From: Prolixibacteraceae bacterium
GTDB lineage: Bacteria > Bacteroidota > Bacteroidia > Bacteroidales > Prolixibacteraceae
Reading direction: 5' to 3'
NCBI GenBank assembly: GCA_028683385.1
Contig: JAQUIJ010000010.1
Location: forward strand, 170,567-234,566
Length of the DNA: 64,000 nucleotides
The notes under the pieces were generated by a model, which ran no database searches, was not told the DNA's origin, and worked only from the letters and a program-made list of their open reading frames with translations. The translations under genes were made by a program, and so were the position numbers. Of the stretch, positions 16,250-30,685 are shown one piece after another. Position 1 is the first letter of the stretch. Every line of letters begins with the position of its first letter.

Positions 16250-16280
16250 ATCTGGCAGTGTAAAAATTACGCTGCCAGAT
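16250..16280 (-). terminator. Strong terminator of the peroxiredoxin gene
   Basis: ATCTGGCAGTGTAA pairs with TTACGCTGCCAGAT (14 bp, one G-U) across AAA. On the minus strand it ends in T7. It lies 49 nt past the stop of the peroxiredoxin gene at 16330. Confidence 0.85.
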
Positions 16281-16329
16281 AAAAATCGGAGAAAATATTA
16301 CATTATTGAAACTTATCCAATCATAAACG

Positions 16330-17046
16330 CTAGCTTTTAACTTTAATCGCATCCATTACTTTTTCTTCTGATAATTCTTTGGTGCAGAAGAACCAGTCGT
16401 AACACGTCTTGCCTTCTTCTTTGGTTTCCATGCGCTCTTTAGCTACGCCGCATGATCCGGCTGTCGGAATAATCACGGCATCGCCGGGGCGCCAGTCGGC
16501 AGGCATGGCAACGCTAAAAGCATCAGCCGCCTGAAGGGCAATAATTACGCGTTTCAGTTCGTCGAAATTGCGACCAAGTGACAGCGGATAATAGATCATG
16601 GCACGGATAATTCCTTTCGGATCGATGAAAAATACGGCGCGAACAGCCTTTGTGTTGCTTTCTCCTGGTTGGATCATGCCATATTTTTTGGCTACTTCCA
16701 TCGTAATATCTTCAATCAAAGGGAAATTAACTTCAACATTTTTCATCCCTTTGTACTCGATTTTTTCTTTGATGGTGCGTAGCCAGGCAATGTGGCTGTA
16801 AAGCCCATCAACCGATAATCCGACCAAATCGCAATTAAACACTTTAAATTCGCTTTCCATTGAAGCAAAAGTCATAAACTCGGAGGTACACACCGGCGTA
16901 AAATCGGCTGGGTGGCTGAATAGAATTACCCATTTCCCTGAATAATCAGATGGGAAATTAATTGGTCCCTGGGTGGTTACTGCTTTAAACTCAGGCGCTT
17001 TTTCGCCAATGCGTGGTAATGTCATCATTTCTTGATTTGTTTCCAT
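16330..17046 (-). CDS. Peroxiredoxin, Prx6 type (intact)
   Basis: 238 residues. Thioredoxin fold with the catalytic motif HPADFTPVCTSEF (peroxidatic Cys53), the conserved Arg in AVRAVFFIDPKG, and the extended Prx6 C-terminal part (DWRPGDAVIIPT) followed by KTCYDWFFCTKEL. It reduces hydrogen and organic peroxides; whether 1-Cys or using the C-terminal cysteines as resolving residues is not certain. It is 18 nt downstream of the Dps-like ferritin gene, forming a two-gene operon closed by the hairpin at 16250. The gene at 10180 is its degenerate paralogue. Confidence 0.95.
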   Translation of the reverse strand: METNQEMMTLPRIGEKAPEFKAVTTQGPINFPSDYSGKWVILFSHPADFTPVCTSEFMTFASMESEFKVFNCDLVGLSVDGLYSHIAWLRTIKEKIEYKGMKNVEVNFPLIEDITMEVAKKYGMIQPGESNTKAVRAVFFIDPKGIIRAMIYYPLSLGRNFDELKRVIIALQAADAFSVAMPADWRPGDAVIIPTAGSCGVAKERMETKEEGKTCYDWFFCTKELSEEKVMDAIKVKS

Positions 17047-17064
17047 TGTTTTTTTGTTTTAGGA

Positions 17065-17577
17065 TTACATTCTCATTTTCTTAAATTCTTCTTTCATTCT
17101 TCTGATATCGGTAAGCCAGTCTTCGATATCATTTTCGTGTTCAAGTTCTTCATTCAGGATTGTTGTAGCCATAGCGTGTGTGGTATGGTCTTTCCCGCCT
17201 GTAAAGTCAGCTATTTCTTTATAGCGTTGAATCGCACATCGTTCACCTTTGAGGTTTTGTTCAAGAATAACCTCGATATAAGGATCGGTTGGCGCATCGT
17301 AGGAACAACGGCTAAGTTTCGGCCATTCTTCAGGATTGAGAACAGGTGTGCCTCCCAGTTGAATGATTCGGCTGACGACCAACACCGCATGTCCTAATTC
17401 CTGATTGGCATGGAGCAATAATTCCGGCTCTACTTCGCTGCGCATCGGGCCTTCCATTAACCTGGCTCCAATCCAGTACTGGTAATAGGCCAGCCATTCT
17501 TCGGCCAATGCGGCGTTTAGCATGTCAAGTAATTTTGGTACGTCTAACTCTAAAATGTTTACAGCTTGTTTTCCCAT
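17065..17577 (-). CDS. Dps-like (DPSL/thioferritin-type) ferritin
   Basis: 170 residues. Ferritin-like bundle with ligands in ALAEEWLAYYQYWIGARLM, HANQELGHAVLVVSRI, NLKGERCAIQRYKEIA and LNEELEHENDIEDWL. The pair of cysteines (SRCSYDAP and GERCAIQRY) is the mark of Dps-like thioferritins as found in archaea and anaerobic bacteria. Such cages oxidise ferrous iron with hydrogen peroxide. It diverges from the second DUF134 gene and precedes the peroxiredoxin gene, matching an oxidative-stress role. Confidence 0.88.
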   Translation of the reverse strand: MGKQAVNILELDVPKLLDMLNAALAEEWLAYYQYWIGARLMEGPMRSEVEPELLLHANQELGHAVLVVSRIIQLGGTPVLNPEEWPKLSRCSYDAPTDPYIEVILEQNLKGERCAIQRYKEIADFTGGKDHTTHAMATTILNEELEHENDIEDWLTDIRRMKEEFKKMRM

Positions 17578-17693: not shown

Positions 17694-17743
17694 TTGTTGC
17701 AACCAAATGTTCATTATATTTGTAACGAACATTTGCTCATTAT
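17694..17743 (+). promoter_or_regulatory. Promoter and operator of the main DUF134/NifX-like cluster
   Basis: A Bacteroidetes promoter is visible: TTG (17694-17696), 18-nt spacer, perfect -7 box TATATTTG (17715-17722). It is flanked by the inverted pair AATGTTC (17706-17712)/GAACATT (17727-17733), then ATTTGCTCATTAT up to the ATG at 17744. The same elements in similar spacing precede the DUF134 gene at 11211. The operator arms overlap the -7 box, which suggests repression. Confidence 0.7.
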
Positions 17744-18313
17744 ATGGCACGACCGAAACGAATACGAAAGATGACCAATCCCCCTCATTTCAAGGGATTC
17801 AGGGCTATTGGCCTGCCGGAAGAAAACAATCCGGTAGTTTTAAATTACGAAGAATATGAAGCCATACGTCTAAGCAACTTCGAATTATACGGTCACCTTG
17901 AAGCTTCACAGATCATGGAAGTTTCGCGCCCAACTTACTCGCGTATTTATGAAAGCGCCCGACGAAAAGTTGCTGAGGCATTTGTGTTGGGCAAAGCCAT
18001 ACTTTTTGAAGGAGGTAAAGTGTTTTTCGACACTGAATGGTATTCATGTACTAGCTGTGGCTGTTATTTCAACCATCCAGACAAAGAGCAGAAAATTAAC
18101 AATTGTACGCTGTGTGGTTCAACTGACATTGAGCAGTATCATGAAAATACCCAGTCCAGTTCAGTAGAAGATATTTGTATTTGTCCGAAGTGCGGACATG
18201 AAAAAGTACATTCTCCGGGTGTTCCATGCCGAACGGAGATCTGTCCGGTTTGTAATTCCCAGATGGTTCGAAAAGGGTCGCCACACCAGCATCGTAACAG
18301 AAACTGTAATTAA
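17744..18313 (+). CDS. DUF134-family predicted DNA-binding protein with zinc ribbons (copy 2)
   Basis: 189 residues. Same layout as the copy at 11211: N-terminal DUF134 HTH (EEYEAIRLSNFE, ASQIMEVSRPTYSRIYESAR) and C-terminal ribbons (YSCTSCGC...NCTLCGS, CICPKCGHEKVHS...CPVCNSQMV). It heads the plus-strand cluster and probably senses metal or redox state through the ribbons, controlling its own operon through the sites at 17694-17743; this is inference from position and repeat sites. Confidence 0.9.
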   Translation: MARPKRIRKMTNPPHFKGFRAIGLPEENNPVVLNYEEYEAIRLSNFELYGHLEASQIMEVSRPTYSRIYESARRKVAEAFVLGKAILFEGGKVFFDTEWYSCTSCGCYFNHPDKEQKINNCTLCGSTDIEQYHENTQSSSVEDICICPKCGHEKVHSPGVPCRTEICPVCNSQMVRKGSPHQHRNRNCN

Positions 18314-18415
18314 ATAAATAAAATATGAAACGAGCCAATAGCTAAAACCTTAAATATTAGGTATAATTATCAATGGCAAGTTCCATGTGGCAATTAAAAA
18401 ACAAATTAAAAACAC

Positions 18416-18739
18416 ATGAAAGTAGCAATCACATCAACAGGGAATAGCCCTGATTCAAAGTTAGACAGCCGTTTTGGCCGCTGTTCGTACTTCGTGATTT
18501 ACGACACCGAAACTCATGCGACTGAATACATTCCCAATCAGAACAAAGAAAATGTAGAAGGTGCAGGGCCAGCTTCAGTCCAATTAATTGCATCTAAGGG
18601 GGCTGAAAAGGTTGTATCCGGTGAGTTCGGAGCTAAAGTAAAATCACTTTTCGATAGTCTTAAAATTCAGTTGGTTGTATTAAACGATCCTGAAAAAAAA
18701 GTAAGTGCTATTATTGATTTGTTGAATCCTAAAAATTAA
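18416..18739 (+). CDS. NifX/NifB-domain protein, copy 2
   Basis: 107 residues, nearly the same as the protein at 11798 (identical MKVAITS...GNSPDS, RFGRCSYFVIYDTE, GEFGAKVK blocks). A single cluster-binding NifX-like domain. The one cysteine (GRCSYF) is kept in both copies, but the second cysteine of copy 1 (EGCGPAS) is Ala here (EGAGPAS). It is followed within 4 nt by the first DUF5320 gene, consistent with an ORP-like metal-cluster operon. Confidence 0.9.
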   Translation: MKVAITSTGNSPDSKLDSRFGRCSYFVIYDTETHATEYIPNQNKENVEGAGPASVQLIASKGAEKVVSGEFGAKVKSLFDSLKIQLVVLNDPEKKVSAIIDLLNPKN

Positions 18740-18743
18740 CATC

Positions 18744-18926
18744 ATGCCACAATTAGATGGAACCGGCCCCGAAAAACAAGGTTCTAAAACAGGCAGGGGA
18801 TTAGGAAAATGTAGTAATGTACCAAAAGAAGAAGCCATTGAAAAATTGGGTACAGGTATGGGCTTGCGCCGAAGAGCTGGTGGCGGACAAGGACAAGGCA
18901 AACGCTTAAAAAGCGGTTTGAAATAG
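18744..18926 (+). CDS. DUF5320-like miniprotein (Gly/Arg-rich), first of two
   Basis: 60 residues. It starts MPQLDGTGPEKQGSKTGRGL with GKC shortly after, the typical DUF5320 beginning (MPgxDgTGPxGxGPxTGRgxGxC), and ends in a basic glycine-rich tail. These miniproteins accompany NifX-like/MinD genes in anaerobes; function unknown. It lies 4 nt after the NifX-like gene. Confidence 0.8.
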   Translation: MPQLDGTGPEKQGSKTGRGLGKCSNVPKEEAIEKLGTGMGLRRRAGGGQGQGKRLKSGLK

Positions 18927-18954
18927 TGTTAATGAAACAAAAAAGGAGGTTATT

Positions 18955-19185
18955 ATGCCAGGATTAAACAGACGTGGTCCTCAGGGTGAGGGACCTATGA
19001 CAGGCAGAAGAATGGGCCGGTGCAATCCCGATAACAAGGGAAAAACCGACGATGAAATTTTACAGAACAAAGACTTAGCACTAGAAAAAGATCTAGGCAC
19101 AGGTTGCGGATTTGGATTTGCACGAGGCCAAGGTAGACTTGGTCGCGGTCTGGGACGGCAAAACCGTTACAGAGGGGGTAATTAA
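18955..19185 (+). CDS. DUF5320 miniprotein, second of two
   Basis: 76 residues. MPGLNRRGPQGEGPMTGRRM then GRC is the DUF5320 signature; a central acidic helix (NKGKTDDEILQNKDLALEKD) precedes a Gly/Arg-rich end with one more Cys (GTGCGFGFARGQGR). The start is fixed by an unusually good Shine-Dalgarno, AAGGAGG, 7 nt before the ATG; such sites are rare in Bacteroidota and suggest high expression or acquisition from another phylum. Confidence 0.85.
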   Translation: MPGLNRRGPQGEGPMTGRRMGRCNPDNKGKTDDEILQNKDLALEKDLGTGCGFGFARGQGRLGRGLGRQNRYRGGN

Positions 19186-19190
19186 AGTCC

Positions 19191-19219
19191 GGGAGGGGGC
19201 AATCTCCCCCTCCCATTTT
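19191..19219 (+). terminator. GC-rich hairpin with T-run inside the cluster (attenuator or terminator)
   Basis: GGGAGGGGG (19191-19199) and CCCCCTCCC (19206-19214), loop CAATCT, then ATTTTT. It directly follows the second DUF5320 gene (stop at 19185). The next gene continues on the same strand, so it may separate a strongly expressed DUF134/NifX/DUF5320 part from the rest. Confidence 0.85.
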
Positions 19220-19245
19220 TAACAAACAAACTTAAAATTAATAAT

Positions 19246-19608
19246 ATGAATAAAAGAATCGCTATTCCGATGGAAAACGGGGTTTTGTGTGCCCATTTTG
19301 GGCATTGTCAACAATTTGCAATTGTTGAAGTAGTGAATGGAGTAATTACCGATATTAACGAACAAACGCCACCCGAACATGTACCGGGTTTGTATCCACG
19401 TTGGGTTGCCGGGTTTGGAGTGACCGACGTAATTGGCGGAGGTATGGGACAAAAAGCGATTGATTTGTTCAATCAGCAAAACATCAATGCTTTTGTGGGT
19501 GCTCCAATAAAATCGGCCAGAGAATTGGTCAGCGATTTTATTGAGAACAAACTTACCCTGACTGCCAATTATTGTAACCACGATGGAAATCACGAATGTA
19601 ATCATTAA
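19246..19608 (+). CDS. NifX/NifB-domain protein with Cys/His tail, copy 3
   Basis: 120 residues. NifX-type domain (IAIPMENGVLCAHFGHCQQF, WVAGFGVTDVIGGGMGQKAI) and a short tail rich in Cys and His (YCNHDGNHECNH) that could bind metal. It is more divergent than copies 1 and 2 and contains the CAHFGHC motif seen in ORP/MTH1175-like proteins. The next gene starts 26 nt before its stop, so translation is probably coupled. Confidence 0.88.
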   Translation: MNKRIAIPMENGVLCAHFGHCQQFAIVEVVNGVITDINEQTPPEHVPGLYPRWVAGFGVTDVIGGGMGQKAIDLFNQQNINAFVGAPIKSARELVSDFIENKLTLTANYCNHDGNHECNH

Positions 19609-20473
19609 GGAAAAGGAAGAAATAATCTCGGATTATCGTTGTTTCTTCTGTTTTGCCAAGGCTTTTGAGCGATTGATTGAAAAGGAAAATCTTTCGCCTG
19701 AAGAAAAGAAATGCTTTGCCAGCGACATGTTCGGTTTATTCAACGAGGTAAAGCATAATTTTTCAATTCCGATGATTTCACGCGAATTACATGTTCTGTT
19801 AAAACAGTACAACGATAATCCTGACCCTTATAAAAAAGCGAAGAAGCAAAGCAACGATTTGGTTTTGGGGATGTATGCCGACTTGAAAAATATCGTTTTT
19901 CAAGCAGCGAATCAATTTGAAACTGCTTTACGTCTGGCGATTGCAGGAAATATAATTGATTATGGCATAGGCAACCATTTTGATTTACAGGGAACTATTG
20001 ACAAGGTTCTTTATTCAGATTTTGCTGTTGACGATTCTGTTGAGTTAAAACAGGCTTTTTCCGAAGCAAAGACAGTGCTTTATTTGGGCGACAATTGCGG
20101 CGAGATGGTTTTTGACAAACTATTTATTGAAACCATGATGCATCCCAATTTGATTTACGCTGTTCGTGGAGCGCCGGTTATTAACGATGCCACCTTGGAA
20201 GATGCCAAATATGTTGGGATGGACATAGTGGCTGATCTCATATCGAACGGTTACGATGCCCCTTCAACCATTCTGGAACATTGTTCCGCTGAATTTATGG
20301 AAGTATTCGACCGGGCTGATGTGATTATTTCGAAAGGTCAGGGTAACTTGGAAGGATTGCTGGGCAAAACCGATAAAGAAGTTTATTTTCTGTTAATGGT
20401 TAAATGCGAGGTAATTGCCGATGCTCTGGGGGTTAAAAAAGGGGATTTTGTAGTGATGAAAAACAAGCTTTAA
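19583..20473 (+). CDS. DUF89/ARMT1-like damage-control phosphatase family protein
   Basis: 296 residues. DUF89 motifs visible: YLGDNCGEMVFDKLFIE (Asp/Asn metal site), VRGAPVINDATLEDA, and IISKGQGNLEGL. DUF89 proteins are metal-dependent phosphatases acting on damaged or overflow phosphometabolites; short prokaryotic members have unknown substrates and often sit beside MinD/ferredoxin ATPase genes as here. Two early cysteines (YRCFFCFA) match the CxxC of the short subfamily. The start overlaps the preceding gene by 26 nt. Confidence 0.85.
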   Translation: MEITNVIIKEKEEIISDYRCFFCFAKAFERLIEKENLSPEEKKCFASDMFGLFNEVKHNFSIPMISRELHVLLKQYNDNPDPYKKAKKQSNDLVLGMYADLKNIVFQAANQFETALRLAIAGNIIDYGIGNHFDLQGTIDKVLYSDFAVDDSVELKQAFSEAKTVLYLGDNCGEMVFDKLFIETMMHPNLIYAVRGAPVINDATLEDAKYVGMDIVADLISNGYDAPSTILEHCSAEFMEVFDRADVIISKGQGNLEGLLGKTDKEVYFLLMVKCEVIADALGVKKGDFVVMKNKL

Positions 20474-20484
20474 TAAGATTCACC

Positions 20485-20928
20485 GTGGCAAAAATTAAAA
20501 TCGGAATTATTATTTGCGACCGTTATCGTACCTGTGCCGGAGGAAAATGCTTTAGGGCATTGAAAAACCGGGATGGAGCATTCTCAATGTATAAAAATCG
20601 CGAAGTTGAATTAGCGGCATTTACAACCTGTGGTGGTTGTCCCGGAGGGAATATTGAATATGCCCCTGAAGAGATGAAAAAGAACGGGGTAACGCATATT
20701 CATTTTGCTACCGGATTTTTAGTGGGTTATCCGCCTTGTCTTTATATGGAACATTTCCAAAAATTCATTCCTGAAAAGTATGGGATGAAGGTGATCCTTG
20801 GAACACATCCTATTCCGCAGAAATATTTTATTACCCACAGTAAATTAAATACCTGGGACACCGCATTTTTGCAGGAAGCCATTCTGCCAACGCTTTCTGA
20901 TGAGAAAATACGCTTAAATTATGACTGA
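20485..20928 (+). CDS. CGGC-domain protein (GTG start)
   Basis: 147 residues. The family cysteines are seen in RTCAGGKCFRAL and TTCGGCPGGN, with HFATGF and YPPCLY further on. CGGC proteins are thought to bind metal or an Fe-S cluster; no biochemical role is settled. The start GTG at 20485 is chosen because it gives the standard AKIKIGIIICDRY beginning. The next gene overlaps its end by 8 nt. Confidence 0.85.
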   Translation: MAKIKIGIIICDRYRTCAGGKCFRALKNRDGAFSMYKNREVELAAFTTCGGCPGGNIEYAPEEMKKNGVTHIHFATGFLVGYPPCLYMEHFQKFIPEKYGMKVILGTHPIPQKYFITHSKLNTWDTAFLQEAILPTLSDEKIRLNYD

Positions 20929-21796
20929 AAATTCAAAAATTAAAATAGCTGTTGCAAGTGGCAAAGGAGGTACGGGCAAAACACTTGTTTCGACCAATTT
21001 ATTTTGGACGGCTCAAAATGCCGGTTTTCCGGTGACCTTGGTTGATTGCGATGCCGAAGAGCCGAATGTAACAGAATTTGTTTCGGGCGATGTGTTATCT
21101 ACTGATACAGTTACGCAAAACATCCCGGTCATTAATCCTGAACTGTGCGTGTTTTGCGGCAAATGCTTCAACTACTGTAATTACAATGCCATTGTATATC
21201 TTCCGGCCAATCAATTTATAAAGGTAGTCGAAGATTTGTGTCACGATTGCGGCGCATGTAAGGTTGCTTGCAAATTTGGCGCAATTACCGAAAAAGAGAA
21301 ACAATTGGGAACCGTCAATTCGATGTACTTAAATAGTCATGCTGAACTTATTGAAGCTTGTGCCGATGTTGGGGTTTACTCGCCTGTGCCAGTTATTAAA
21401 AAAGCAATTAAAGAAGCCTCAAATAGTTATCTGGCACTCTTCGATTCGCCTCCCGGTATTTCGTGTCCGTTTATTGCCACCGTCGAAAATGCCGATTATG
21501 TGATTTTGGTTACCGAACCAACACCGTTCGGACTAAACGACCTGAAACTGTCAGTAGAAACCTTGCAGCAACTTAAAAAAACTTTTGGAGTAATTGTAAA
21601 CCGCGCCGGATTGGGCAACCGCGAAGTTTACGACTGGCTGCAACAAAATAAAATTCCACTGTTGCTCGAAATTCCTTTCGAACGTGAAATTGCCCGGATT
21701 TATTCTGAAGGCCGGTTGCTGGCAGAAGAAAAACCCGCTTATCAACTTCAGTTTAAACAAGTATTAAAAGCGATTGAAAAATCAGTAAAACGATGA
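20921..21796 (+). CDS. MinD/Mrp-type P-loop ATPase with inserted ferredoxin domain (first)
   Basis: 291 residues. Walker A SGKGGTGKT at ~13-21; two 4Fe-4S motifs are inserted at ~68-115 (CVFCGKCFNYCNYNAI, CHDCGACKVACKFGAI); the switch region reads LFDSPPGISCPF. Such MinD-ferredoxin ATPases occur in pairs in ORP loci of Desulfovibrio and in many anaerobes and are thought to insert or carry metal clusters. The stop overlaps the start of the second ATPase (ATGA), so the two are probably made in equal amounts and may act as a heterodimer. Confidence 0.93.
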   Translation: MTENSKIKIAVASGKGGTGKTLVSTNLFWTAQNAGFPVTLVDCDAEEPNVTEFVSGDVLSTDTVTQNIPVINPELCVFCGKCFNYCNYNAIVYLPANQFIKVVEDLCHDCGACKVACKFGAITEKEKQLGTVNSMYLNSHAELIEACADVGVYSPVPVIKKAIKEASNSYLALFDSPPGISCPFIATVENADYVILVTEPTPFGLNDLKLSVETLQQLKKTFGVIVNRAGLGNREVYDWLQQNKIPLLLEIPFEREIARIYSEGRLLAEEKPAYQLQFKQVLKAIEKSVKR

Positions 21797-22698
21797 ATGA
21801 AATTGTAATTCTAAGCGGCAAAGGGGGTACTGGAAAAACAAGCTTAAGCGCTGCATTTGCAACACTTAACAACCAAACGATTGTTGCCGACTGCGATGTG
21901 GATGCTGCGAACCTTTACCTTATTCTGAATCCCGTAAATTATTTCGAAAGGAATTTTACTACCGGACATACCGCAGTTATCGAATACACTACCTGTACCA
22001 ATTGCGGACTTTGTATTGATTATTGCCGTTTTGATGCCATTTCGCTCCAAAAGGGGAAAGTAACGATTTCCGAAGTATCGTGCGACGGGTGCAAATTGTG
22101 TTCGCGGGTTTGCCCGACACATTCCATCCAGATGATTCCAAGCGATAAAAGTCGCTGGTTTGCCGGGAATTACCGCAATGGCAAGATGGTTCACGCACGG
22201 CTCGCTCCGGGTGAGGAAAATTCAGGAAAACTGGTGAATGTAGTGCGCGAGAATGCCCGAAAAACGGCACAGGAAACAGGTTGGGAAACCATTATTATCG
22301 ATGGCCCTCCGGGAACAGGTTGTCCGGTTATTTCATCGGTAACGGGAACTAATAAAGCCATTATCGTTACCGAACCGACCAATTCAGGGTTTCACGACAT
22401 GAAACGGGTATTGGAAATTACGGGCAACTTCAAGGTAAAATCGGTTGTCGTGATTAATAAATACGACCTCAATGAAGACATTACCAGCAAAATAGAAAGC
22501 TGGTGCACTGAAAATAATATTCCCGTTGCGGGTAAAATTCCATTCGATGAGCAAATCGTCGAGGCCATGATCAATTGCCAAAGCATTACAGAATGGAAAC
22601 CTGAATCGGAAACAAGCAAAGAAATAATACGAATCTGGAAACAGATAACCAACGATAAAATAGCAAATGAAATCAGTAAATCAAAAAGTCTGAATTAG
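21793..22698 (+). CDS. MinD/Mrp-type P-loop ATPase with inserted ferredoxin domain (second)
   Basis: 301 residues. Walker A SGKGGTGKT at ~8-16, early switch DCDVDAANLYL, two 4Fe-4S motifs (CTNCGLCIDYCRFDAI and CDGCKLCSRVCPTHSI) at ~73-110, and IIIDGPPGTGCPVI. It pairs with the preceding gene by a 4-nt overlap. The likely role is ATP-driven Fe-S or mixed-metal cluster transfer to the NifX-like proteins of the operon; this partner choice is inferred from ORP loci. Confidence 0.93.
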   Translation: MNEIVILSGKGGTGKTSLSAAFATLNNQTIVADCDVDAANLYLILNPVNYFERNFTTGHTAVIEYTTCTNCGLCIDYCRFDAISLQKGKVTISEVSCDGCKLCSRVCPTHSIQMIPSDKSRWFAGNYRNGKMVHARLAPGEENSGKLVNVVRENARKTAQETGWETIIIDGPPGTGCPVISSVTGTNKAIIVTEPTNSGFHDMKRVLEITGNFKVKSVVVINKYDLNEDITSKIESWCTENNIPVAGKIPFDEQIVEAMINCQSITEWKPESETSKEIIRIWKQITNDKIANEISKSKSLN

Positions 22699-22730
22699 TT
22701 ACTTGTATTAAAAGAAACATCAATATTAAC

Positions 22731-23156
22731 ATGATCGAACACGAATACACATTTAGGGTGATGTACCCCGACACCGATAAAATGGGCACGGTACACCATT
22801 CGAACTATGCGAAATATTACGAAACTGCCCGTTGGGAATTGTTCCGAAGTATTGGAATTTCGTACCATTCGGTTGAAGAAGCCGGATATATGCTTCCGGT
22901 CATCCGGATGAATTTCAGGTTCATTAAAACCGTAAATTACGATGCCTTGCTTAAAGTAAAAACTACACTGAAAGCCATAAAAGGGGTGCGGATCTGGTTT
23001 ACTTACAAACTTTACAACGAGCAAAATGAACTGGTGAATGAAGCCGAAACCGAACTGGCTTTTGTTGAAAAAGATACATGGAAACCTTGCGCTGCATCTG
23101 AATCAGTAATGAAAGCCATTGAACTTAATCGGCAAAAACAACCCGTATATGAATAG
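22731..23156 (+). CDS. Acyl-CoA thioesterase, YbgC/FadM-like hotdog fold
   Basis: 141 residues. The hotdog signature is clear: YPDTDKMGTVHHSNYAKYYE (catalytic Asp/His region) followed by ARWELFRSIG. It hydrolyses acyl-CoA thioesters; the substrate is not evident. In this cluster, beside a CoA-disulfide reductase, a link to CoA handling is possible but inferred. It overlaps the TrmO start by 8 nt. Confidence 0.88.
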   Translation: MIEHEYTFRVMYPDTDKMGTVHHSNYAKYYETARWELFRSIGISYHSVEEAGYMLPVIRMNFRFIKTVNYDALLKVKTTLKAIKGVRIWFTYKLYNEQNELVNEAETELAFVEKDTWKPCAASESVMKAIELNRQKQPVYE

Positions 23157-23634
23157 AATAACTTATCATCCCATTGGGATTGTTCATTCACCTTTTCGAT
23201 TCCCTGAGGGTACGCCAATTCAGGCAACCGCTGCAAAAGATATACAGGCCCGAATTGAAATATTTCCGGAATACCGCAACGGAATAAATGACCTTGACGG
23301 ATTTTCGCACATCATTGTTTTGTTTCACATGCATCTGGCGAAAAGCAAATCGTTACTTGTAACTCCTTTCCTTGATTCGGAACCACATGGTGTTTTTGCC
23401 ACTCGTTCACCCGGAAGGCCAAATCCGATAGGCTTTTCAGTGGTTGAACTCGAAAAAATTGAAAATGATATCCTGTTTGTGAAAGGTGTCGATATTCTGG
23501 ATGGTTCACTAGTTCTGGATATTAAACCATACATTCCTCAATTTGATGCTTTTGAAACAACAAAGAAAGGTTGGATTGAGAAAAATGCACATAAAATCGG
23601 TGATCAGAAAGACGATGGACGGTTTAAAATTTAA
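23149..23634 (+). CDS. TrmO/TsaA-like tRNA (t6A37)-methyltransferase family protein
   Basis: 161 residues from the ATG at 23149 (MNRITYHPIGIVHSPF); a longer in-frame start upstream lies inside the thioesterase gene. The hallmark RSPGRPNPIGFSVVEL is present, as is LDGFSHIIVLFHMH. E. coli TrmO methylates t6A37 of a tRNA with SAM. This short form lacks the C-terminal extension of E. coli TrmO; similar short forms occur in metal/redox clusters of anaerobes and may have another substrate. Confidence 0.85.
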   Translation: MNRITYHPIGIVHSPFRFPEGTPIQATAAKDIQARIEIFPEYRNGINDLDGFSHIIVLFHMHLAKSKSLLVTPFLDSEPHGVFATRSPGRPNPIGFSVVELEKIENDILFVKGVDILDGSLVLDIKPYIPQFDAFETTKKGWIEKNAHKIGDQKDDGRFKI

Positions 23635-23636
23635 CA

Positions 23637-24074
23637 ATGACTAAGCAAGAAGCGATAAATAAAGCAACAGTCCTTTTCGATGAAGGTTATGCCTGTTCCC
23701 AAGCTATATTGCTGACTTTTGCCAGTCAGTTTGACCTTGATGAATGGACAGCCAAACTCATTTCATCAACTTTTGGAGGAGGTATGGGACGCTTGCGGGA
23801 AAAATGTGGCGCGGTAACCGGAGGGTTCATGGTTTTGGGCCTCAAATACGGCAATGCAAATCCAACGGATATGGATACCAAACTGGCTGCATACCGGAAA
23901 GTACGCGACTTAAACCATCTGGTAGAAGAGATTCATGGCACCAGTAATTGTGGCGAAATACTCAAAAAATTTGCATCAGAAGCCGATGTTGCTGAACGAA
24001 AACACCATAAAATAATATGCCGAAAGATTGTTGGCGATGTAACCGGACAGGTATTCGACTTGATAAACACCTAA
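23637..24074 (+). CDS. C_GCAxxG_C_C family redox protein
   Basis: 145 residues. Conserved cysteines of the family appear as YACSQAI, KCGAVTGGFMVLGLKYG, SNCGEIL and IICRKIV. The family (also seen in split-Soret cytochrome relatives) is predicted to bind a redox cofactor or metal; function unknown. Start lies 2 nt after the TrmO stop. In anaerobes it often neighbours MinD-ferredoxin and Hdr-like genes, as here. Confidence 0.85.
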   Translation: MTKQEAINKATVLFDEGYACSQAILLTFASQFDLDEWTAKLISSTFGGGMGRLREKCGAVTGGFMVLGLKYGNANPTDMDTKLAAYRKVRDLNHLVEEIHGTSNCGEILKKFASEADVAERKHHKIICRKIVGDVTGQVFDLINT

Positions 24075-24093
24075 CACAAATAAAAACTATACT

Positions 24094-25788
24094 ATGAACG
24101 CAAAACGAATTATTGTAATCGGTGGATCGGCTGCTGGTCCTAAAGCCGCATCGAGAGCACGCCGCATGGACGAAAATGCTGAAATAACTATTATCCAGAA
24201 AGCGTCTGACCTATCAATGGCTTCGTGCGGTTATCCATATTATATCGGCGGATTTTTCGACGACCGCGATCAATTGCTGTGTTCGCCTGCCGGAGTGGTT
24301 CGCGATTCTAAATTTTTCTGGAATGCCAAGAAAATAACTACCAAAGTAAATACTGAAGTCACCGCTATCGACCGGGAAAACAAACGTATCGAATTTACCG
24401 ATCTGATTTCAGGAGAAAAAGGGACAGCCGAATACGATAAACTGATTATTGCCACAGGTGCAACGCCACGCAAACCGCCTGTTCCCGGAATTGAACTCGA
24501 TGGGGTAACTACCCTGCAATCGTTGCACGATGCCGATTATTTGCGCAAGGTACACGACGAAGGCGAAATTAAAAAGGCAGTTGTGATTGGTGGCGGTTTA
24601 ATTGGCATCGAAACCTGCGAAGCGCTTCATTTGGCCGGAATCGAAATTACCCTGATCGAATTGTTGCCCCAATTGCTTACTTTTCTGGATAAGAAAATGG
24701 CCAGACTCGTTGAAAAATATGTAATGAGCAAAACCAACGTGATTCTGGAAAACGGTGTTGCCGCGTTTATTGGTGAAAACGGAAAACTAACAGCAGTAAA
24801 ACTACAAAACGGAACCGAAATCCCCTGCGAGCTAGCGGTAATTGCCATTGGCGTTATCCCGAATACCCAACTCGCTGTTGATGCAGGCTTGCCCGTTGGA
24901 CAAACAGGAGGACTGGTTGTAAACGAATACATGCAAACCTCCGACCCTAATATTTATGCTGTGGGCGACTGCATTGAAATTCCCAATCTGATATCAGGCT
25001 CCCCTGTTCATGCCCCTTATGGCGACTTGGCTAATTTGCAAGGCCGCGTGGCTGGTGAAAATGTGATTTCAGGAAATGTAGCCCGATTCCCCGGAACTAT
25101 ACAAACCGGCATTTGTAAGGTTTTCGATTATGGAGTGGGCGCAACCGGTCTGTCGAAGAAAAATTGCCTGAAAGCTGGGATTACAAACATCGAAACAGTT
25201 GTAAATGCCAGCCTTGACAAACCTGGTTTTATGGATGGCAAGCTGTTGATCACCAAGCTGGTTGTTGATAAACCGAACGGGATCATTCTGGGTGCGCAGG
25301 TGATTGGCCCGGGTGATGTAAGCAAGCAGGTTGCTATTTGGGCAATGGCCATTAAAGGTTCGCTCACGGTTGACGATATGGTAAACGCCGACCTGCCTTA
25401 TGCTCCGCCCTATTCTCTTGCTATCGACCACAGCATTGCCACGGCCCACATCATGCAAAACAAGCTAAATGGTCGTTTCTCCGGAGTATCGTCCGAACAA
25501 CTCAGGGAGAAGCTAAAAACCAAAGAGCCGCTTGTTTTGCTGGATGTTCGAAATCCCGACGAATACGAACAAATACGGTTGGGTATTGGTGAAAAACTGA
25601 TTCCTTTGGGGCAACTTCGCAAACGGCTGGACGAAATGCCCGAAGACAAGAATGCTGAAATCATTACCTGGTGCAAAATATCGCTTCGTGGGTATGAAGC
25701 TGCGCTAATCCTTCAGGCAAATGGCTATAAAAATGTGAAGGTTTTGGAAGGCGGAATTATGGCATGGCCGTATAAACGTGAGAAGTAA
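24094..25788 (+). CDS. CoA-disulfide reductase-like flavoprotein with C-terminal rhodanese domain
   Basis: 564 residues. FAD-binding GGSAAGPKAASRARR near residue 10; active-site Cys45 in ASCGYPYYIGG, the single redox cysteine of CoA-disulfide reductase/NADH oxidase enzymes; NAD-binding VVIGGGLIGIETCEAL near 166; second FAD motif YAVGDCIEI; rhodanese domain at ~465-562 with its own cysteine in WCKISLRGYEA. CoADR-Rhd enzymes reduce CoA-disulfide, CoA-persulfide or polysulfide with NAD(P)H. This points to a persulfide or thiol-redox function for the operon. Confidence 0.93.
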   Translation: MNAKRIIVIGGSAAGPKAASRARRMDENAEITIIQKASDLSMASCGYPYYIGGFFDDRDQLLCSPAGVVRDSKFFWNAKKITTKVNTEVTAIDRENKRIEFTDLISGEKGTAEYDKLIIATGATPRKPPVPGIELDGVTTLQSLHDADYLRKVHDEGEIKKAVVIGGGLIGIETCEALHLAGIEITLIELLPQLLTFLDKKMARLVEKYVMSKTNVILENGVAAFIGENGKLTAVKLQNGTEIPCELAVIAIGVIPNTQLAVDAGLPVGQTGGLVVNEYMQTSDPNIYAVGDCIEIPNLISGSPVHAPYGDLANLQGRVAGENVISGNVARFPGTIQTGICKVFDYGVGATGLSKKNCLKAGITNIETVVNASLDKPGFMDGKLLITKLVVDKPNGIILGAQVIGPGDVSKQVAIWAMAIKGSLTVDDMVNADLPYAPPYSLAIDHSIATAHIMQNKLNGRFSGVSSEQLREKLKTKEPLVLLDVRNPDEYEQIRLGIGEKLIPLGQLRKRLDEMPEDKNAEIITWCKISLRGYEAALILQANGYKNVKVLEGGIMAWPYKREK

Positions 25789-25811
25789 CGAATCCTACAA
25801 AGTCTCCGAAA

Positions 25812-26267
25812 ATGAATCAAATCGTAATTGTTGGAGTTGAACCTCCTTGCCCCAGATGTAAACTCTTGGGAAATATTATTGATGCCAAAGTAAAAGAATT
25901 AAATATTGAGGCCGAAGTCTTTCATTGGGCTTATTCCACTCCTGAAGCAAGAAAAATGGCCAATAGCTTTGGACTGGTTCCGGGCACAGCAAAAGACGTT
26001 TCGGTTAAGATACAAATTCCAATTGACAGTAAAAAAATCAGCATGGCCAAAAACAGCAGAACCATTCATCCTGATTACGATTTTCGGGTCTATAACAGCT
26101 GCAACTGGACTTTTGAACTGGATGAAGTATTGAGACTTTTTGAAAACCGTGCGAAAGAAGTTGGGATAATGATGACTCCCGTTTTGATAATTAATGGGGT
26201 GCTGAAGCATCAGGGTAGTGTTCCCAGTCTAAGTAAAATAAACGAATGGCTTATCGAATTGAAATAA
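25812..26267 (+). CDS. Thioredoxin-fold protein with CPRC active site
   Basis: 151 residues. Starts MNQIVIVGVEPPCPRCKLLG: a CxxC redox pair (Cys13, Cys16) after the first beta strand, and a cis-Pro site in MMTPVLIINGVLKHQG, as in thioredoxin-like folds. A middle insert (GTAKDVSVKIQI ... VYNSCNWTFELDEVLRLF) is not typical, so it is not a plain thioredoxin. It sits between the CoADR-like enzyme and the HdrC-like protein, suggesting electron or sulfur transfer between them. Confidence 0.8.
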   Translation: MNQIVIVGVEPPCPRCKLLGNIIDAKVKELNIEAEVFHWAYSTPEARKMANSFGLVPGTAKDVSVKIQIPIDSKKISMAKNSRTIHPDYDFRVYNSCNWTFELDEVLRLFENRAKEVGIMMTPVLIINGVLKHQGSVPSLSKINEWLIELK

Positions 26268-26279
26268 AAAAGAATCAAA

Positions 26280-26978
26280 ATGGCGAGCCTAAAAGAAGAA
26301 CTCCTCAAAGACATCCGCTTTGTTGAAGGATTGAAATCCTGCATCAACTGTGGGGTTTGTACTGCTATTTGCCCGGCAGCCAGGTTCTATGAATACGATC
26401 CGCGAATGATTGCGGATACTGTCCAGAAAGGCAATGAAGCCGAAATTGAGCAACTTCTAAAAAGCGACACCATTTGGTTTTGCGGCGAATGTCTTTCGTG
26501 CAAAACCCGTTGTCCGAGAGGGAATACGCCCGGATATATCATTCAGGCGTTGCGTGCCTTGTCAATAGAAAAAGGTTTTTTTACCGAAAGTGAACAAGGA
26601 CAAAAGCAACTGGCCATTAAACGCACCGTTGGCGAGCATATCCTGAAATACGGTTATTGTGTTTACATCGACGAGGTGAATACCGAAATGTACCCCGAAC
26701 AAGGCCCTGTATGGGATTGGCTAAAACAAAACCGTCAGGAAGTTCTGGAGCGGTTAGGAACAAGCTATCAAAAAGACCGAAGCGGTACTTTGCGCCAAAT
26801 ACCCGAAGAATCGCTCAACGATCTTCAACGGATCTTCGATGAAACGGGCGCTACGGAAAGGTTTGAAAAAATAGAGACACAATCGGCTTTGAAAGCGAAT
26901 GAATTGGGCATGAATCGGGAAGCGTATTTTGACTACTTGTATAACGGTGAAAAAGACAGGAACAATGAAAAACGGTAA
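26280..26978 (+). CDS. HdrC-like 4Fe-4S protein
   Basis: 232 residues. Two 4Fe-4S motifs: CINCGVCTAICP (Cys21, 24, 27, 31) and CGECLSCKTRCPRG (Cys68, 71, 74, 78), followed by IIQALRALSIEKG, as in heterodisulfide reductase subunit C. The ~130-residue C-terminal extension is not found in plain HdrC. It passes electrons to an HdrB-type thiol site; the next gene is HdrB-like and overlaps by 14 nt. No HdrA or DsrMKJOP genes are present in the window. Confidence 0.9.
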   Translation: MASLKEELLKDIRFVEGLKSCINCGVCTAICPAARFYEYDPRMIADTVQKGNEAEIEQLLKSDTIWFCGECLSCKTRCPRGNTPGYIIQALRALSIEKGFFTESEQGQKQLAIKRTVGEHILKYGYCVYIDEVNTEMYPEQGPVWDWLKQNRQEVLERLGTSYQKDRSGTLRQIPEESLNDLQRIFDETGATERFEKIETQSALKANELGMNREAYFDYLYNGEKDRNNEKR

Positions 26979-28032
26979 AAACCCGATGTGGGAAGCGTAT
27001 CAGAAGGAAATAGCGAATGACAACTACTATTTTGCCCGGAGTTGCATCCGCCAGAATTTTTTCCCGGCAGCCGAAGACTTATACCTGAAAATTCTCAGGA
27101 ACGAGCTTGGCAAGGATATTTACGACGATGCCCGGCAAACGACCTGTACAGGGATTGCTTATCATTCGGGCATTATTCCGATGGAAACTACCATGACTGT
27201 TGTGGCTCGGCAGTTTGCGCTGATGAACGAAGCCGGATACGAGAATTTTGTGTGTTCGTGTGTTACATCGTTTGGAATTTATGCCGAAATGCTTGAAACC
27301 TGGAAGCATTTTCCGGAGAAGGAAAAAGAGACACGCGAAGCCTTAAAACGGGCAACCGGAATGACTTTTGAAATTCCTAAAAACATGGTTCATGCCAGCG
27401 ACCTTGTTTATAAATTCAGGAAAGAAATTGCTGCAAAAGCTAAATTTAGGTTGATCAACAAACAAACTGGCGAACCTTTAAAAATTGTTGACCACATTGG
27501 TTGCCATTATGCCAAGATTTTTCCGGAGAAAGGAATTGGTGGCGCTGAATTTCCTTATGTACTGGCTGGATTGATTGATGATTGGGGCGGCGCTCAGGTC
27601 GATTATCCTGAACGCCGCCATTGTTGCGGATTTGGGTTCAGGCAATACCTGCTAAAATCGAACCGTGGCTATTCGGTGAGCAATTCCAAGAAAAAATTTG
27701 ATTCGATGAAACCTTTTCGCCCTGATTTAATCATAGCCAATTGCCCCGGTTGTACTTTCTTCCTCGACCGATGGCAATATGTGATTTCAGAAATGGAAGG
27801 AAAAACTTACGGGGAAAATGGTTACGGAATTCCCGTTTTGACCTACGAAGAACTGGCTGGGTTATTACTTGGCTACAATCCCTGGGATATCGGGCTTCAG
27901 GTACATCAGGTTGCTGTTGAGCCTTTGCTCGATAAACTTGGAATTGAAAATAAACCGGAAGAAAAATATTCAGGCATAAATGGCTTGGACTTGGGAAAAC
28001 CTGGAATGCCAAATACTTTAAAATGTTACTGA
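26965..28032 (+). CDS. HdrB-like CCG-domain protein
   Basis: 355 residues from the ATG at 26965 (MKNGKNPMWEAYQKE). Cysteine-rich domains: the N-terminal half shows TTCTGIAYHSGIIP and VCSCVTSFGIY, the C-terminal half IGCHYAKIFP, RRHCCGFGFRQ and ANCPGCTFFLDRW. In HdrB such CCG domains hold two non-cubane 4Fe-4S clusters and reduce CoM-S-S-CoB. Bacteria lack CoB, so the substrate here is another disulfide or persulfide. Together with HdrC-like, CPRC protein and CoADR-Rhd it forms a dithiol/persulfide module. Confidence 0.9.
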   Translation: MKNGKNPMWEAYQKEIANDNYYFARSCIRQNFFPAAEDLYLKILRNELGKDIYDDARQTTCTGIAYHSGIIPMETTMTVVARQFALMNEAGYENFVCSCVTSFGIYAEMLETWKHFPEKEKETREALKRATGMTFEIPKNMVHASDLVYKFRKEIAAKAKFRLINKQTGEPLKIVDHIGCHYAKIFPEKGIGGAEFPYVLAGLIDDWGGAQVDYPERRHCCGFGFRQYLLKSNRGYSVSNSKKKFDSMKPFRPDLIIANCPGCTFFLDRWQYVISEMEGKTYGENGYGIPVLTYEELAGLLLGYNPWDIGLQVHQVAVEPLLDKLGIENKPEEKYSGINGLDLGKPGMPNTLKCY

Positions 28033-28033
28033 T

Positions 28034-28843
28034 ATGAAGATTATAACTTTGATCGAAAACCTTGTCTATAAACAAGGCTTAGTTGCAGAACACGGCTTGG
28101 CAATCTATATCGAAACCGACAAGATGAAAATACTTTTCGATACCGGGCAAAGTGGCTTATTCCTTCAAAATGCCCAAAAGTTGGGAATTGCTATTGAAGA
28201 TGTTGATATTCTGGTGATTTCACACGGGCATTACGACCATACCGGTGGTTTGTATCCTTTTCTTGAGAAAAACAGCAAGGCAAAAGTGTACGCCAAAAAG
28301 GATGTTTTCGTTCCAAAATACCACGGACCTAACCGCTTTATTGGAACAATGCGAAACGAAAAGTTACTCAAAGACCGACTTACTTATGTGGATGCAGTTA
28401 ACCAAATAGCTGAAGGTGTCTATATTTTGCCTGATATTATCATTCATAATTCATTGGATACCCATTTTAACGGGATGTATAAAAAAGTGGACAGCGGGTT
28501 TGTTCCTGATGAGTTTGACGATGAGCTCTTTCTGGTGTTGAAACAGGATGAACAGATAAACATAGTTACAGCCTGTTCGCACCGGGGAATTACCAACATT
28601 TGCGCCACAGCCACCGAACAGTTTAAACATCCGCTTGGATTAATTCTTGGTGGTTTCCATACGAAAAACTGTACTACAGAACAATACGAGATGATTATAG
28701 ACTATTTTCGTCAATTAAAACCAAAATCGATTGGCGTTTGTCATTGTACCGGGGTTGAAAAATATGCGGATTTGCATAATGATCTGGATTTCGGTGTTTT
28801 TTACAATTTTACAGGGAATGAAGTTAAATTAGGATTAAAATAA
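28034..28843 (+). CDS. Metallo-beta-lactamase-fold hydrolase
   Basis: 269 residues. The metal-binding motif ISHGHYDHTGGLYP is clear, with later ligands in NIVTACSHRGITNI and IGVCHCTGVEKY. It belongs to the group annotated as dihydropterin-aminobenzene-phosphate synthase-like, common beside NifX-like proteins in archaea and anaerobes. The reaction is unknown; persulfide dioxygenases are also of this fold but differ in motif. It lies 1 nt after the HdrB-like stop and 4 nt before the next gene. Confidence 0.88.
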   Translation: MKIITLIENLVYKQGLVAEHGLAIYIETDKMKILFDTGQSGLFLQNAQKLGIAIEDVDILVISHGHYDHTGGLYPFLEKNSKAKVYAKKDVFVPKYHGPNRFIGTMRNEKLLKDRLTYVDAVNQIAEGVYILPDIIIHNSLDTHFNGMYKKVDSGFVPDEFDDELFLVLKQDEQINIVTACSHRGITNICATATEQFKHPLGLILGGFHTKNCTTEQYEMIIDYFRQLKPKSIGVCHCTGVEKYADLHNDLDFGVFYNFTGNEVKLGLK

Positions 28844-28847
28844 AATC

Positions 28848-29222
28848 ATGAAAGTAGCAGTACCAACAAGAGGAAATAACGTTGATGACCATTTTGGTCA
28901 TTGCGATGCCTACACGGTTTTTAATATCGATGAAAACCAAAAGATTATCAGTTCAGAATTATTGCCGTCGCCACAGGGTTGCGGTTGCAAAAGCAACATT
29001 GCCTCAGTTTTGAAAGAAAAAGGTGTAAGTGTTATGCTTGCCGGAAACATGGGCGGGGGTGCATTAAATGTACTAAACCGACATGGGATTGATGTGTATC
29101 GCGGCTGCACGGGCAATGTGCATGAATTAGCCGAGTCCTTTCTGGAAGGCAAAATAGGCGATTCGGGTATCGGTTGTTCGCACCACGGACATGAGGGAGA
29201 AGAACATCAATGCAGCCATTAA
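28848..29222 (+). CDS. NifX/NifB-domain protein with Cys/His-rich tail, copy 4
   Basis: 124 residues. MKVAVPTRGNNVDDHFGHCD is the NifX-type start with the DHFGHC motif, and ANMGGGALNVLNRHGIDVYRG-like central segment follows (read from 29041 on). Extra cysteines appear in PQGCGCKSN, YRGCTGN and the tail IGCSHHGHEGEEHQCSH. The rich metal-ligand content fits a cluster or metal carrier. It closes the plus-strand operon begun at 17744. Confidence 0.88.
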   Translation: MKVAVPTRGNNVDDHFGHCDAYTVFNIDENQKIISSELLPSPQGCGCKSNIASVLKEKGVSVMLAGNMGGGALNVLNRHGIDVYRGCTGNVHELAESFLEGKIGDSGIGCSHHGHEGEEHQCSH

Positions 29223-29366: not shown

Positions 29367-29966
29367 ATGAGCGAATTTGATGCCCGTGCCCGTGAATGGG
29401 ACAAAGATAAAATGCACATGGATCGCTCGGTAGCCATTGCTGCCGAACTCGAAAAGATGATCCCGCTTCATTCGGGGATGAAAGCCCTTGAATATGGCGC
29501 TGGTACCGGAATTTTAAGTTTCCTGCTGAAAGACCGGTTTTCAGGAATTATCCTGATGGACAATTCTCAGGAAATGATAAAAGTTTGTGTTGAAAAAACT
29601 GAATACTTCAAAACCAATCACATTCTGCCCATTTGGTTCGATCTGGAAAACAAAGATTATGACCATCATTTCGACATCATTTACAATCAGATGGTTCTCC
29701 ATCACGTGAATGATTACGAGGCCATTATCTATACATTTCATTCGATGCTAAATCCCGGAGGATATTTGGCCATTGCCGATTTGTATACGGAAGATGGCTC
29801 GTTTCATGGCCCAGATGTTAAAGTCCATCTAGGTTTTGATCCTGAAGAACTTACCGAAATATTCAGGAATGCAGGATTTAAGAATATCAAATACCAGACT
29901 TGCTTCGAAGTAAAACGCGATTCGGGAGTAAAATACCCGGTATTTTTACTGGTCGGCCAAAAATAA
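29367..29966 (+). CDS. Class I SAM-dependent methyltransferase
   Basis: 199 residues. SAM-binding motif I is ALEYGAGTGILSFLL, motif II IILMDNSQEMIKV, and a later LNPGGYLAIADLYTEDGSF. Small-molecule methyltransferase of the Methyltransf_11/25 type; substrate unknown. It is 144 nt past the end of the NifX-like operon, so it may have its own promoter; the zinc-ribbon ORF follows 9 nt later. Confidence 0.85.
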   Translation: MSEFDARAREWDKDKMHMDRSVAIAAELEKMIPLHSGMKALEYGAGTGILSFLLKDRFSGIILMDNSQEMIKVCVEKTEYFKTNHILPIWFDLENKDYDHHFDIIYNQMVLHHVNDYEAIIYTFHSMLNPGGYLAIADLYTEDGSFHGPDVKVHLGFDPEELTEIFRNAGFKNIKYQTCFEVKRDSGVKYPVFLLVGQK

Positions 29967-30562: not shown

Positions 30563-30595
30563 AAATTAATTCTTACTGATGCAAATATAACTGAA

Positions 30596-30659
30596 TTAGT
30601 GTCACTAAAAAGATTTAAGTGATACTAATGCGATTTAATATTTTCTTTTATTAGATTTG
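30596..30659 (+). promoter_or_regulatory. Divergent promoter with inverted-repeat operator before the DUF6132/SQR-like operon
   Basis: TTAGTGTCACT (30596-30606) and AGTGATACTAA (30618-30628) form an 11-bp inverted repeat with one mismatch. A perfect -7 box TAGATTTG follows at 30652-30659, 27 nt before the DUF6132 start. The operator lies about where the -33 box should be, fitting repression or activation. Confidence 0.65.
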
Positions 30660-30685
30660 TAGGGAAACAATTTAAAATAATAGAC

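Follow-up and report, generated by a model that had tools for sequence, protein, structure and literature searches.

An orange-protein-type operon joined to HdrCB and to a palindromic DUF134-linked operator in a Prolixibacteraceae bacterium

The orange proteins (ORP) are known for an unusual Mo-Cu-sulfide cluster, and a putative function in cell division has been put forward for them: the ORP of Desulfovibrio vulgaris has been described with a polar localisation and proposed to act in division (PMC6345978, PMC3897727). Within the Desulfovibrio ORP complex (Orp3, 4, 5, 8, and 9), MrpORP is reported to hand Fe-S to Orp3 and Orp4, which are described as paired proteins with two ferredoxin motifs (PMC6345978). 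The other described systems closest to the locus analysed here are the heterodisulfide reductase HdrBC, the CoA-disulfide-reductase-type flavoproteins fused to rhodanese (CoADR-Rhd) or CoA-persulfide reductases (3icr, 8a56) together with NoxA-3 (6pfz), and the YTD cluster (YedE, TusA, DsrE and others) of sulfur disproportionators. We analysed a 64,000-nt stretch of contig JAQUIJ010000010.1 of a Prolixibacteraceae bacterium—hereafter the window, whose positions are our coordinates, whereas L, G, and C numbers designate loci, genomes, and contigs—and found there an operon of ORP type, whose union with HdrCB is conserved and whose promoter-operator at the DUF134 gene is likewise conserved and stands also before several unlinked genes.

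The operon consists of 18 plus-strand genes, from DUF134 to NifX3 (17744-29222), with a gap of 102 bp behind DUF134 and all later ones, from NifX1 through NifX3, being of at most 60 bp or overlaps. Behind a promoter/operator with two palindromic sites (17695-17744, from the weight-matrix scan and geometry), the series opens with the presumed regulator DUF134 (17744-18313; PF02001, 67.9 bits), having a helix-turn-helix and a Cys-rich tail by alignment and model, and continues with NifX1 (18416-18739), a Nitro_FeMo-Co protein of the Orp8/ORP type; the DUF5320 miniproteins a and b (18744-18926 and 18955-19185; 42.7 and 35.8 bits); NifX2 (19246-19608), of the MrpORP Di-Nase type; a DUF89/ARMT1 damage-control phosphatase-like protein (19583-20473; 211 bits); a CGGC-domain protein (20485-20928; 100 bits); and the Orp3/Orp4-like MinD-ferredoxin ATPases MinD1 (20921-21796) and MinD2 (21793-22698). 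There follow a YbgC/FadM-type thioesterase (22731-23156), the tRNA methyltransferase TrmO (23149-23634), a C_GCAxxG_C_C redox protein (23637-24074), the CoADR-rhodanese flavoprotein (24094-25788), a thioredoxin-like protein with a CPRC motif (25812-26267; Thioredoxin_3), the HdrC-like protein with two 4Fe-4S motifs (26280-26978), the HdrB-like protein (26962-28032), a metallo-beta-lactamase-fold (MBL) hydrolase (28034-28843; PDB 2p4z), and the Cys/His-rich NifX3 (28848-29222), the three Nitro_FeMo-Co matches scoring 53.1, 52.4, and 79.4 bits. All the Pfam matches quoted lie above cut-off, and NCBIfam models were used along with Pfam for DUF89, both MinD proteins, and the genes from the thioesterase through HdrB. 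The first-pass annotation of this DNA had described fourteen or more tightly packed genes: each one that it named is in its place with a Pfam match above cut-off and the tight packing stands, but its list was incomplete, the thioesterase, TrmO, and C_GCAxxG_C_C genes (22731-24074) having been left unnamed. Folding placed a terminator-like hairpin, a possible attenuator, between DUF5320b and NifX2 (19191-19214), so that read-through may be partial and a partial termination at that point is possible; as a strong hairpin followed by T-rich sequence was present at only eight of the 30 DUF5320b/NifX2-type junctions folded, the window included, we rejected it as a conserved attenuator.

With the Desulfovibrio ORP complex the locus has in common—as had been claimed—an Orp8-type NifX1, which has a PDB match in 2wfb, the ORP of D. 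gigas (41 bits, E 1.5e-9), the paired MinD-ferredoxins, and Di-Nase proteins, all at a single locus; the P-loop and Cys motif occur in 59/59 MinD1 and 58/58 MinD2 homologues, whose likeness to Orp3/Orp4 is by description. The window differs in having a DUF134 gene and a TAnnTTTG promoter, and not sigma54/DVU2106 on two divergent operons (no sigma54 promoter scan was made), and in a Di-Nase protein unfused to an ATPase, so that the locus has no MrpORP (Orp9) fusion; it furthermore adds HdrCB, CoADR-Rhd, DUF89, and CGGC, whose absence from the Desulfovibrio orp loci is unchecked. A Mo-Cu cluster is plausible in NifX1. Since NifX2 and NifX3 gave no match to 2wfb at E 0.001, we rejected the reading in which every NifX protein would carry Mo-Cu, and an extension of that cluster to all three is not supported, NifX2 and NifX3 bearing Cys/His motifs like those that the MrpORP study suggests as 3Fe-4S ligands (PMC6345978). 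The NF041136 match of NifX2 is confined to the Di-Nase part (107 of 450 bits, with no fused ATPase), and the protein contains CAHFGHCQ, TPPEHVPGLYP, and a C-terminal Cys/His motif, with CxHFGHC and TPPxHxPG each being found in 46 of 59 homologues.

The likeness of the HdrCB pair to HdrBC resides in an HdrC with two 4Fe-4S motifs (the cluster motifs being present in 63/63 homologues) and in an HdrB whose C-terminal CCG cysteines are all kept, SC[VI]TSFG occurring in 73/73 HdrB homologues. Unlike HdrABC, the window operon is without HdrA (one lies on contig C25), the N-terminal CCG site is degenerate, and the proteins fall below the NCBIfam equivalog cut-offs. The genome's second HdrB, 65% identical to that of the window, belongs to a classical HdrC-HdrB-HdrA-HdrC2-HdrD-like operon, so that the earlier statement that no HdrA is present holds for the operon but not for the genome. 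A classical operon of this kind is seen at L003 (9263-14356), and the type is common in the order.

At E 1e-30 an HdrB match was found in 92/295 genomes of the order and in 2/198 of the class; of 20 neighbourhoods with matches of lower identity, 19 had the classical order and the remaining one (L069) a bare HdrCB, with an ORP core near none of the 20. A contig scan yielded 273 HdrB relatives, of which the best 80—all Bacteroidota by title—were kept, a choice that over-represents the window's side of the tree. After removal of ORFs shorter than 250 aa and of duplicates by the last 200 residues, 98 distinct proteins entered the tree; no HdrB ORF was called at L155 and L159, both among those 80 loci, and in the neighbourhood counts the window stood in for L001, the short locus of its own gene. 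In that tree, whose root is unknown, the 35 classical proteins constituted one side of a branch with support 99/91, the window HdrB being on the other side. At least two ORP-core genes stood within 10.5 kb of HdrB in 46 of the 63 loci on the window's side (the window counted once), and at least one in 52; when the flanks were ample (6 kb or more ahead of HdrB and 7 kb or more behind it), the former figure became 30/33, with only L013, L124, and L128 being devoid of any ORP-core gene. In contrast, at least two such genes within 12 kb were found at 0/35 classical HdrB genes, where a single MinD2-like name appeared (L014); the classical label took precedence in the tree table, and the ORP-core genes near those rows were counted separately. 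The Fisher test of 46/63 versus 0/35 gave p = 5e-14; since the loci share descent, this value is better read as describing the contrast than as a probability. Since the order of the genes around HdrCB differs among the relatives—behind MinD2, ahead of CGGC, or divergent from DUF134—the proximity to the ORP core has outlasted rearrangement; the window's order MinD1-MinD2-...-CoADR-Rhd-HdrC-HdrB is present in five other genomes as well (L091, L092, L120, L133, L134). A radical SAM protein (L010 9162-10100), a methionine-gamma-lyase (MGL; L005 10764-11945), and a CobO-type adenosyltransferase (L010 13066-13581) recur in the ORP loci of relatives but are absent from the window operon.

CoADR-Rhd, for its part, accompanied HdrCB (at 60% identity or more) in 7/63 loci: directly 5' of HdrC in L091, L120, L133, and L134, with one gene between in L092 and the window, and some 7 kb away in L114. 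A CoADR-like flavoprotein (PNDR) lay near the window-side HdrB in 11/63 loci, HdrA2/MvhD in 12/63, and TusA in 10/63. CoADR-Rhd, PNDR, and HdrA2 overlapped only once beside HdrCB, a pattern suggestive of mutual exclusion, though the numbers are too small for a claim. Among the genomes of the order, nine of 295 have CoADR-Rhd: in the window and in G234 it belongs to the ORP locus, in G313 it is 17 kb away from MinD1, and in the other six it is elsewhere. The window protein is nearest to PDB 6pfz and also matches the CoA-persulfide reductase 8a56, with which it shares the domain order and, by alignment, the flavin-side and rhodanese cysteines (SCG.PYY in 11/14 and CxxxxR[GS] in 14/14 homologues); it differs from those enzymes in being embedded in an ORP locus, and its 357 of 579 bits are below the CoA-disulfide reductase equivalog cut-off. 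The CPRC thioredoxin, whose PDB match is weak, was rejected as a member of a conserved module, since at E 1e-15 it occurs in 1/295 genomes of the order, the window's own, with no match in the other 294. The union of ORP and redox genes that had been proposed accordingly stands for HdrCB, whose linkage is conserved, for CoADR-Rhd in a subset, and for an operator common to both halves, but not for the CPRC protein. The neighbourhood comparison suggested along with that proposal showed an asymmetry: HdrCB of the window kind is rarely without an ORP core, whereas the core is often without HdrCB, and CoADR-Rhd is mostly outside ORP loci.

The palindromic operator around the DUF134 promoter, present also before unlinked genes, is new here; in the titles and abstracts listed from one open-access library we found neither a DUF134 operator nor a combination of ORP with HdrCB or CoADR-Rhd. 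Upstream of DUF134, 8-mers such as GTTCATTA recurred in 34/83 regions versus 1.2 in shuffles, and a symmetric weight matrix from 53 sites gave the palindromic consensus TATAATGAACATATGTTCATTATA. The scanning covered the fetched stretches with this matrix and the genome with one exact pattern; a gap of more than 120 bp defined an operon head, and an operator was counted within 250 bp. Scores above 16 bits arose once in 7.95 Mb of shuffled sequence and were absent from the classical loci (35, together 479 kb). At the window DUF134 promoter two sites, 17695-17718 (14.7 bits) and 17721-17744 (25.6 bits), are spaced by 26 bp, with TATATTTG (17715-17722) lying between them. TAnnTTTG is the -7 consensus of the Bacteroidota, and it begins exactly 8 bp from the site centre in 47/62 regions (by chance, about 1% in a 24-base window), while double sites are 26 bp apart in 21/25, to which geometry the window (17695-17744) conforms. 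The operator resembles the Bacillus-type SOS box, GAAC-N4-GTTC. The structural model of DUF134 (mean pLDDT 79.5) contains a helix-turn-helix, and the closest Foldseek matches were domains of sigma region 4 and DeoR type, the lowest E value being 0.09 (probability 1.00) and none reaching under 0.001.

The operator stood at 50/57 DUF134 heads, which are the training set, and at the HdrC heads of the window's side in 7/12 instances versus 0/22 of the classical ones. Other heads bearing it were those of peroxiredoxin (8/14), DUF89 (6/10), NifX1 (6/11), MGL (5/6), MBL-fold (3/8), ferritin (2/3), and CoADR-type genes (2/7), compared with 17/512 unnamed ORFs of at least 150 aa; none was found at heads of CRP (0/21), SAM methyltransferase (0/14), 4HBT (0/5), or PerR (0/4). 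The lone HdrC sites, with no divergent DUF134 (L069, L161, and L102, the first two being close kin), amount to 3/8 versus 0/22 classical heads (p = 0.014), and five of the six DUF89 sites head operons read as DUF89-(rSAM)-HdrCB (L094, L116, L118, L119, L121). The operator-bearing MBL genes are just 32-34% identical to that of the window, and the two CoADR-type genes are a 77% homologue (L026) and a 35% one (L138). As to the six CoADR-Rhd genes elsewhere, the operator is directly before L026, L028 is behind a peroxiredoxin gene bearing it, L031 comes, after a 145-bp gap, behind DUF5320 and CobO genes whose head bears it, and none was seen at L025, L027, or L032. Both the conserved linkage and the operator common to the two halves speak against these genes being chance neighbours or serving cell division, the role that the polar localisation of the D. 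vulgaris ORP had brought forward (PMC6345978, PMC3897727), and we find either notion scarcely credible for the window, though no search for division genes was made.

In this genome of 5.9 Mb the exact pattern TGARCANNTGYTCA occurs at eight places, and its reversed control at none. Four of the eight score above 20 bits: at the window's second DUF134-NifX1 pair, at a DUF134-NifX3 operon on C19, and at octaheme cytochromes on C19 and C34; as to the others, three are within long ORFs (one with 16.1 bits) and one has 13.5 bits. In the window, the near-perfect operator of that second pair (11160-11183, plus strand; 28.1 bits by matrix scan) precedes DUF134 and NifX1 genes (11211-12115, plus strand) 74% and 78% identical to the first ones and divergent from a second peroxiredoxin gene. 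Further sites in the fetched stretches precede another DUF134-NifX1 pair and a NifX3-DUF1847-SAM methyltransferase set. The exact pattern was found at 26 places, versus nine for the control, in twelve other chosen genomes, 19 loci from which included 12 above 15 bits, 10 of them at ORP-type, peroxiredoxin, or ferritin genes; most were already in the matrix, and just four were new (L180, L183, L184, L189), two of these being at DUF134 genes.

The octaheme proteins belong to the octaheme tetrathionate-reductase family, passing TIGR04315 (cut-off 375), that of C19 with 581 bits and eight CxxCH hemes and that of C34 with 575 bits; the C19 genes that follow have domains of cytochrome b561, of Sulf_transp (YeeE), and of rhodanese, the C34 genes looking alike by sequence. 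TIGR04315 octaheme cytochromes act on N-oxides, and their presence under the operator in this genome might indicate a regulon for nitrosative or nitrite stress, in which the cytochrome would act on nitrite or hydroxylamine and DUF134 would sense N-oxides; the remaining regulon members, pointing toward sulfur and thiols, make this very improbable. The octaheme cytochromes were rejected as general regulon members, because among the loci read—30 of the 70 above-cut-off matches in the order—the operator was at only four, one being this genome's own, or five upon counting a site 564 bp upstream. The same loci L173 and L174 (C19 and C34), in which the octaheme-b561-YeeE operons are found under the operator, have thioredoxin, DUF6132, and IS1595-type Zn-ribbon ORFs nearby.

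Another possibility would be a dissimilatory sulfur module, in which HdrCB, a sulfide:quinone-oxidoreductase (SQR)-like flavoprotein, YeeE, the octaheme cytochrome, and the HdrA-MvhD-TusA-DsrE of relatives would use polysulfide, thiosulfate, or tetrathionate, with the ORP genes as a dedicated cluster-maturation set. Beyond the HdrA2/MvhD genes beside 12/63 HdrB loci, close HdrA2 homologues were present in 8/14 chosen genomes, and an octaheme gene was within 11 kb of MinD1 in 5/41 genomes having both (G258, G318, G427, G453, G462), when we would estimate about 0.3 at random. YeeE-like, TusA, DsrE-like, and HdrA-type genes are furthermore beside HdrCB in L004 (YeeE and DsrE by similarity), as in the YTD cluster; genes of that type, however, are outside the window operon, and the YeeE of this genome sits with the octaheme cytochromes. 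In the window's genome (G000), moreover, the HdrA2 query retrieved the classical HdrA only, and TusA was found only as a domain of an 800-aa frame (MvhD not being searched), the operator was at just the 4/30 octaheme loci, and ORP cores are common without HdrCB, so that we judge this module quite unlikely.

Because the operator is also before some unlinked HdrCB, peroxiredoxin, MGL, MBL-fold, and CoADR-Rhd genes and, in this genome, before two octaheme-YeeE operons, the two halves look like a regulon beyond being neighbours. We propose tentatively, with a confidence somewhat short of even, that the system serves the assembly or repair of metal-sulfur clusters, fed and protected by a flavoprotein-to-HdrCB branch reducing thiols or persulfides, under DUF134. 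DUF134 would bind the computed paired palindromes around its own promoter and coordinate the regulon. Metal-sulfur clusters, which the MinD-ferredoxin ATPases, by analogy with Desulfovibrio, might load or move, would reside on or travel with the NifX proteins, NifX1 being of the ORP type and NifX2 and NifX3 closer to the Fe-S Di-Nase domain of MrpORP. A CoADR-type flavoprotein, or the HdrA-MvhD-TusA set in other genomes, would send electrons through HdrC to HdrB, whose single intact CCG site may reduce a disulfide or persulfide, which reduction would either shield the clusters or supply them with sulfide in a suitable redox state. The metal-sulfur cofactor charged with persulfide sulfur that the first-pass annotation suggested is still an inference.

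Several observations weigh against this cluster-assembly proposal. ORP cores are common without HdrCB: MinD1 is in 105/295 genomes of the order, and a window-side HdrB is in 11 of those 105, a lower bound since the 92 HdrB genomes are only partly in the tree. The ORP core being far commoner than the HdrCB arm, the arm depends on the core, and not the reverse, and is optional. CoADR-Rhd is inside the ORP locus in just two of its nine genomes. The window operon has no Mrp-like ATPase gene, with one homologue elsewhere, and of the 46 P-loop ATPases called Mrp in related loci just 10 have CxxC, which scarcity weakens the analogy to an Fe-S carrier. In HdrB, T61 and S103 by alignment replace two N-terminal-site cysteines of the methanogen protein, positions that act as ligands in Hdr. 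Finally, four of the seven HdrC sites (L012, L122, L125, L127) are in a region common to a divergent DUF134, and 4/8 peroxiredoxin, 2/2 ferritin, and 1/3 MBL sites are in regions common to a divergent DUF134 or NifX1, so that these sites may not serve the HdrC, peroxiredoxin, ferritin, and MBL genes; the five MGL sites, moreover, are two groups of near kin.

The main rival is a defence regulon for reactive sulfur and thiol redox, in which HdrCB, CoADR-Rhd, peroxiredoxin, ferritin, and the MBL-fold protein would remove persulfides and peroxides while NifX and DUF5320 would sequester metals or metal sulfide, without any cluster-building purpose. The operators at peroxiredoxin heads—three of the eight having no named divergent gene (L028, L042, and L050, the last a distant homologue)—those at MGL and at the unlinked CoADR-Rhd (L026), the octaheme-YeeE operons in this genome's regulon, and the KatG, PerR-like, peroxiredoxin, and ferritin genes divergent from the window operon are all consistent with such a defence; but the paired MinD-ferredoxin ATPases, radical SAM (21/63 loci), and CobO (7/63) look biosynthetic, and PerR heads are without the operator (0/4), in view of which we deem it rather unlikely. 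A bolder reading, which we put forward as doubtful, would place DUF134, as master regulator, at the head of an anaerobic sulfane-sulfur/thiol regulon of the Bacteroidota, acting via paired TGAACA-NN-TGTTCA palindromes that flank the promoter and joining the ORP proteins, an HdrA-free flavoprotein-HdrCB persulfide reductase, peroxiredoxin, and octaheme-YeeE operons into one system, in which the ORP proteins would store metal-bound sulfide or supply clusters.

Around the operon, a SAM methyltransferase gene (29367-29966, plus strand) follows NifX3, beside which it is found again elsewhere in the genome and in relatives; the set NifX3-SAM methyltransferase-Zn-ribbon ORF-DUF6132 has three copies in the genome, one in the window and one with DUF1847 inserted. 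The DUF6132 and Zn-ribbon ORF of the octaheme loci recur at 30131-30931, the window's DUF6132 gene (30686-30931, plus strand) having counterparts beside both octaheme operons, and the SQR-like flavoprotein, with a weak family match, lies at 31030-32487 (plus strand). Upstream of the operon and divergent from it, the minus strand at 12475-17577 is an oxidative-stress island with ferritin/rubrerythrin-like, KatG, Fur/PerR-type, 1-Cys peroxiredoxin, and ferritin-like genes; a tyrosine recombinase and an RteC gene (6973-9711) adjoining the second DUF134 pair are possible traces of an integrated conjugative element, and an RND-type efflux operon encoding an AcrB-type pump, a membrane fusion protein, and an outer membrane channel lies with a TetR-type regulator gene on the minus strand at 34213-42007.

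DUF134, a Pfam family of unknown function, thus gains a candidate role as a regulator together with a predicted binding site, and the locus suggests an HdrCB that would be fed by a CoADR-type flavoprotein in place of HdrA. The conserved operator and the redox arm lead to two direct questions for ORP proteins: which signal DUF134 responds to, and which substrate HdrCB reduces.

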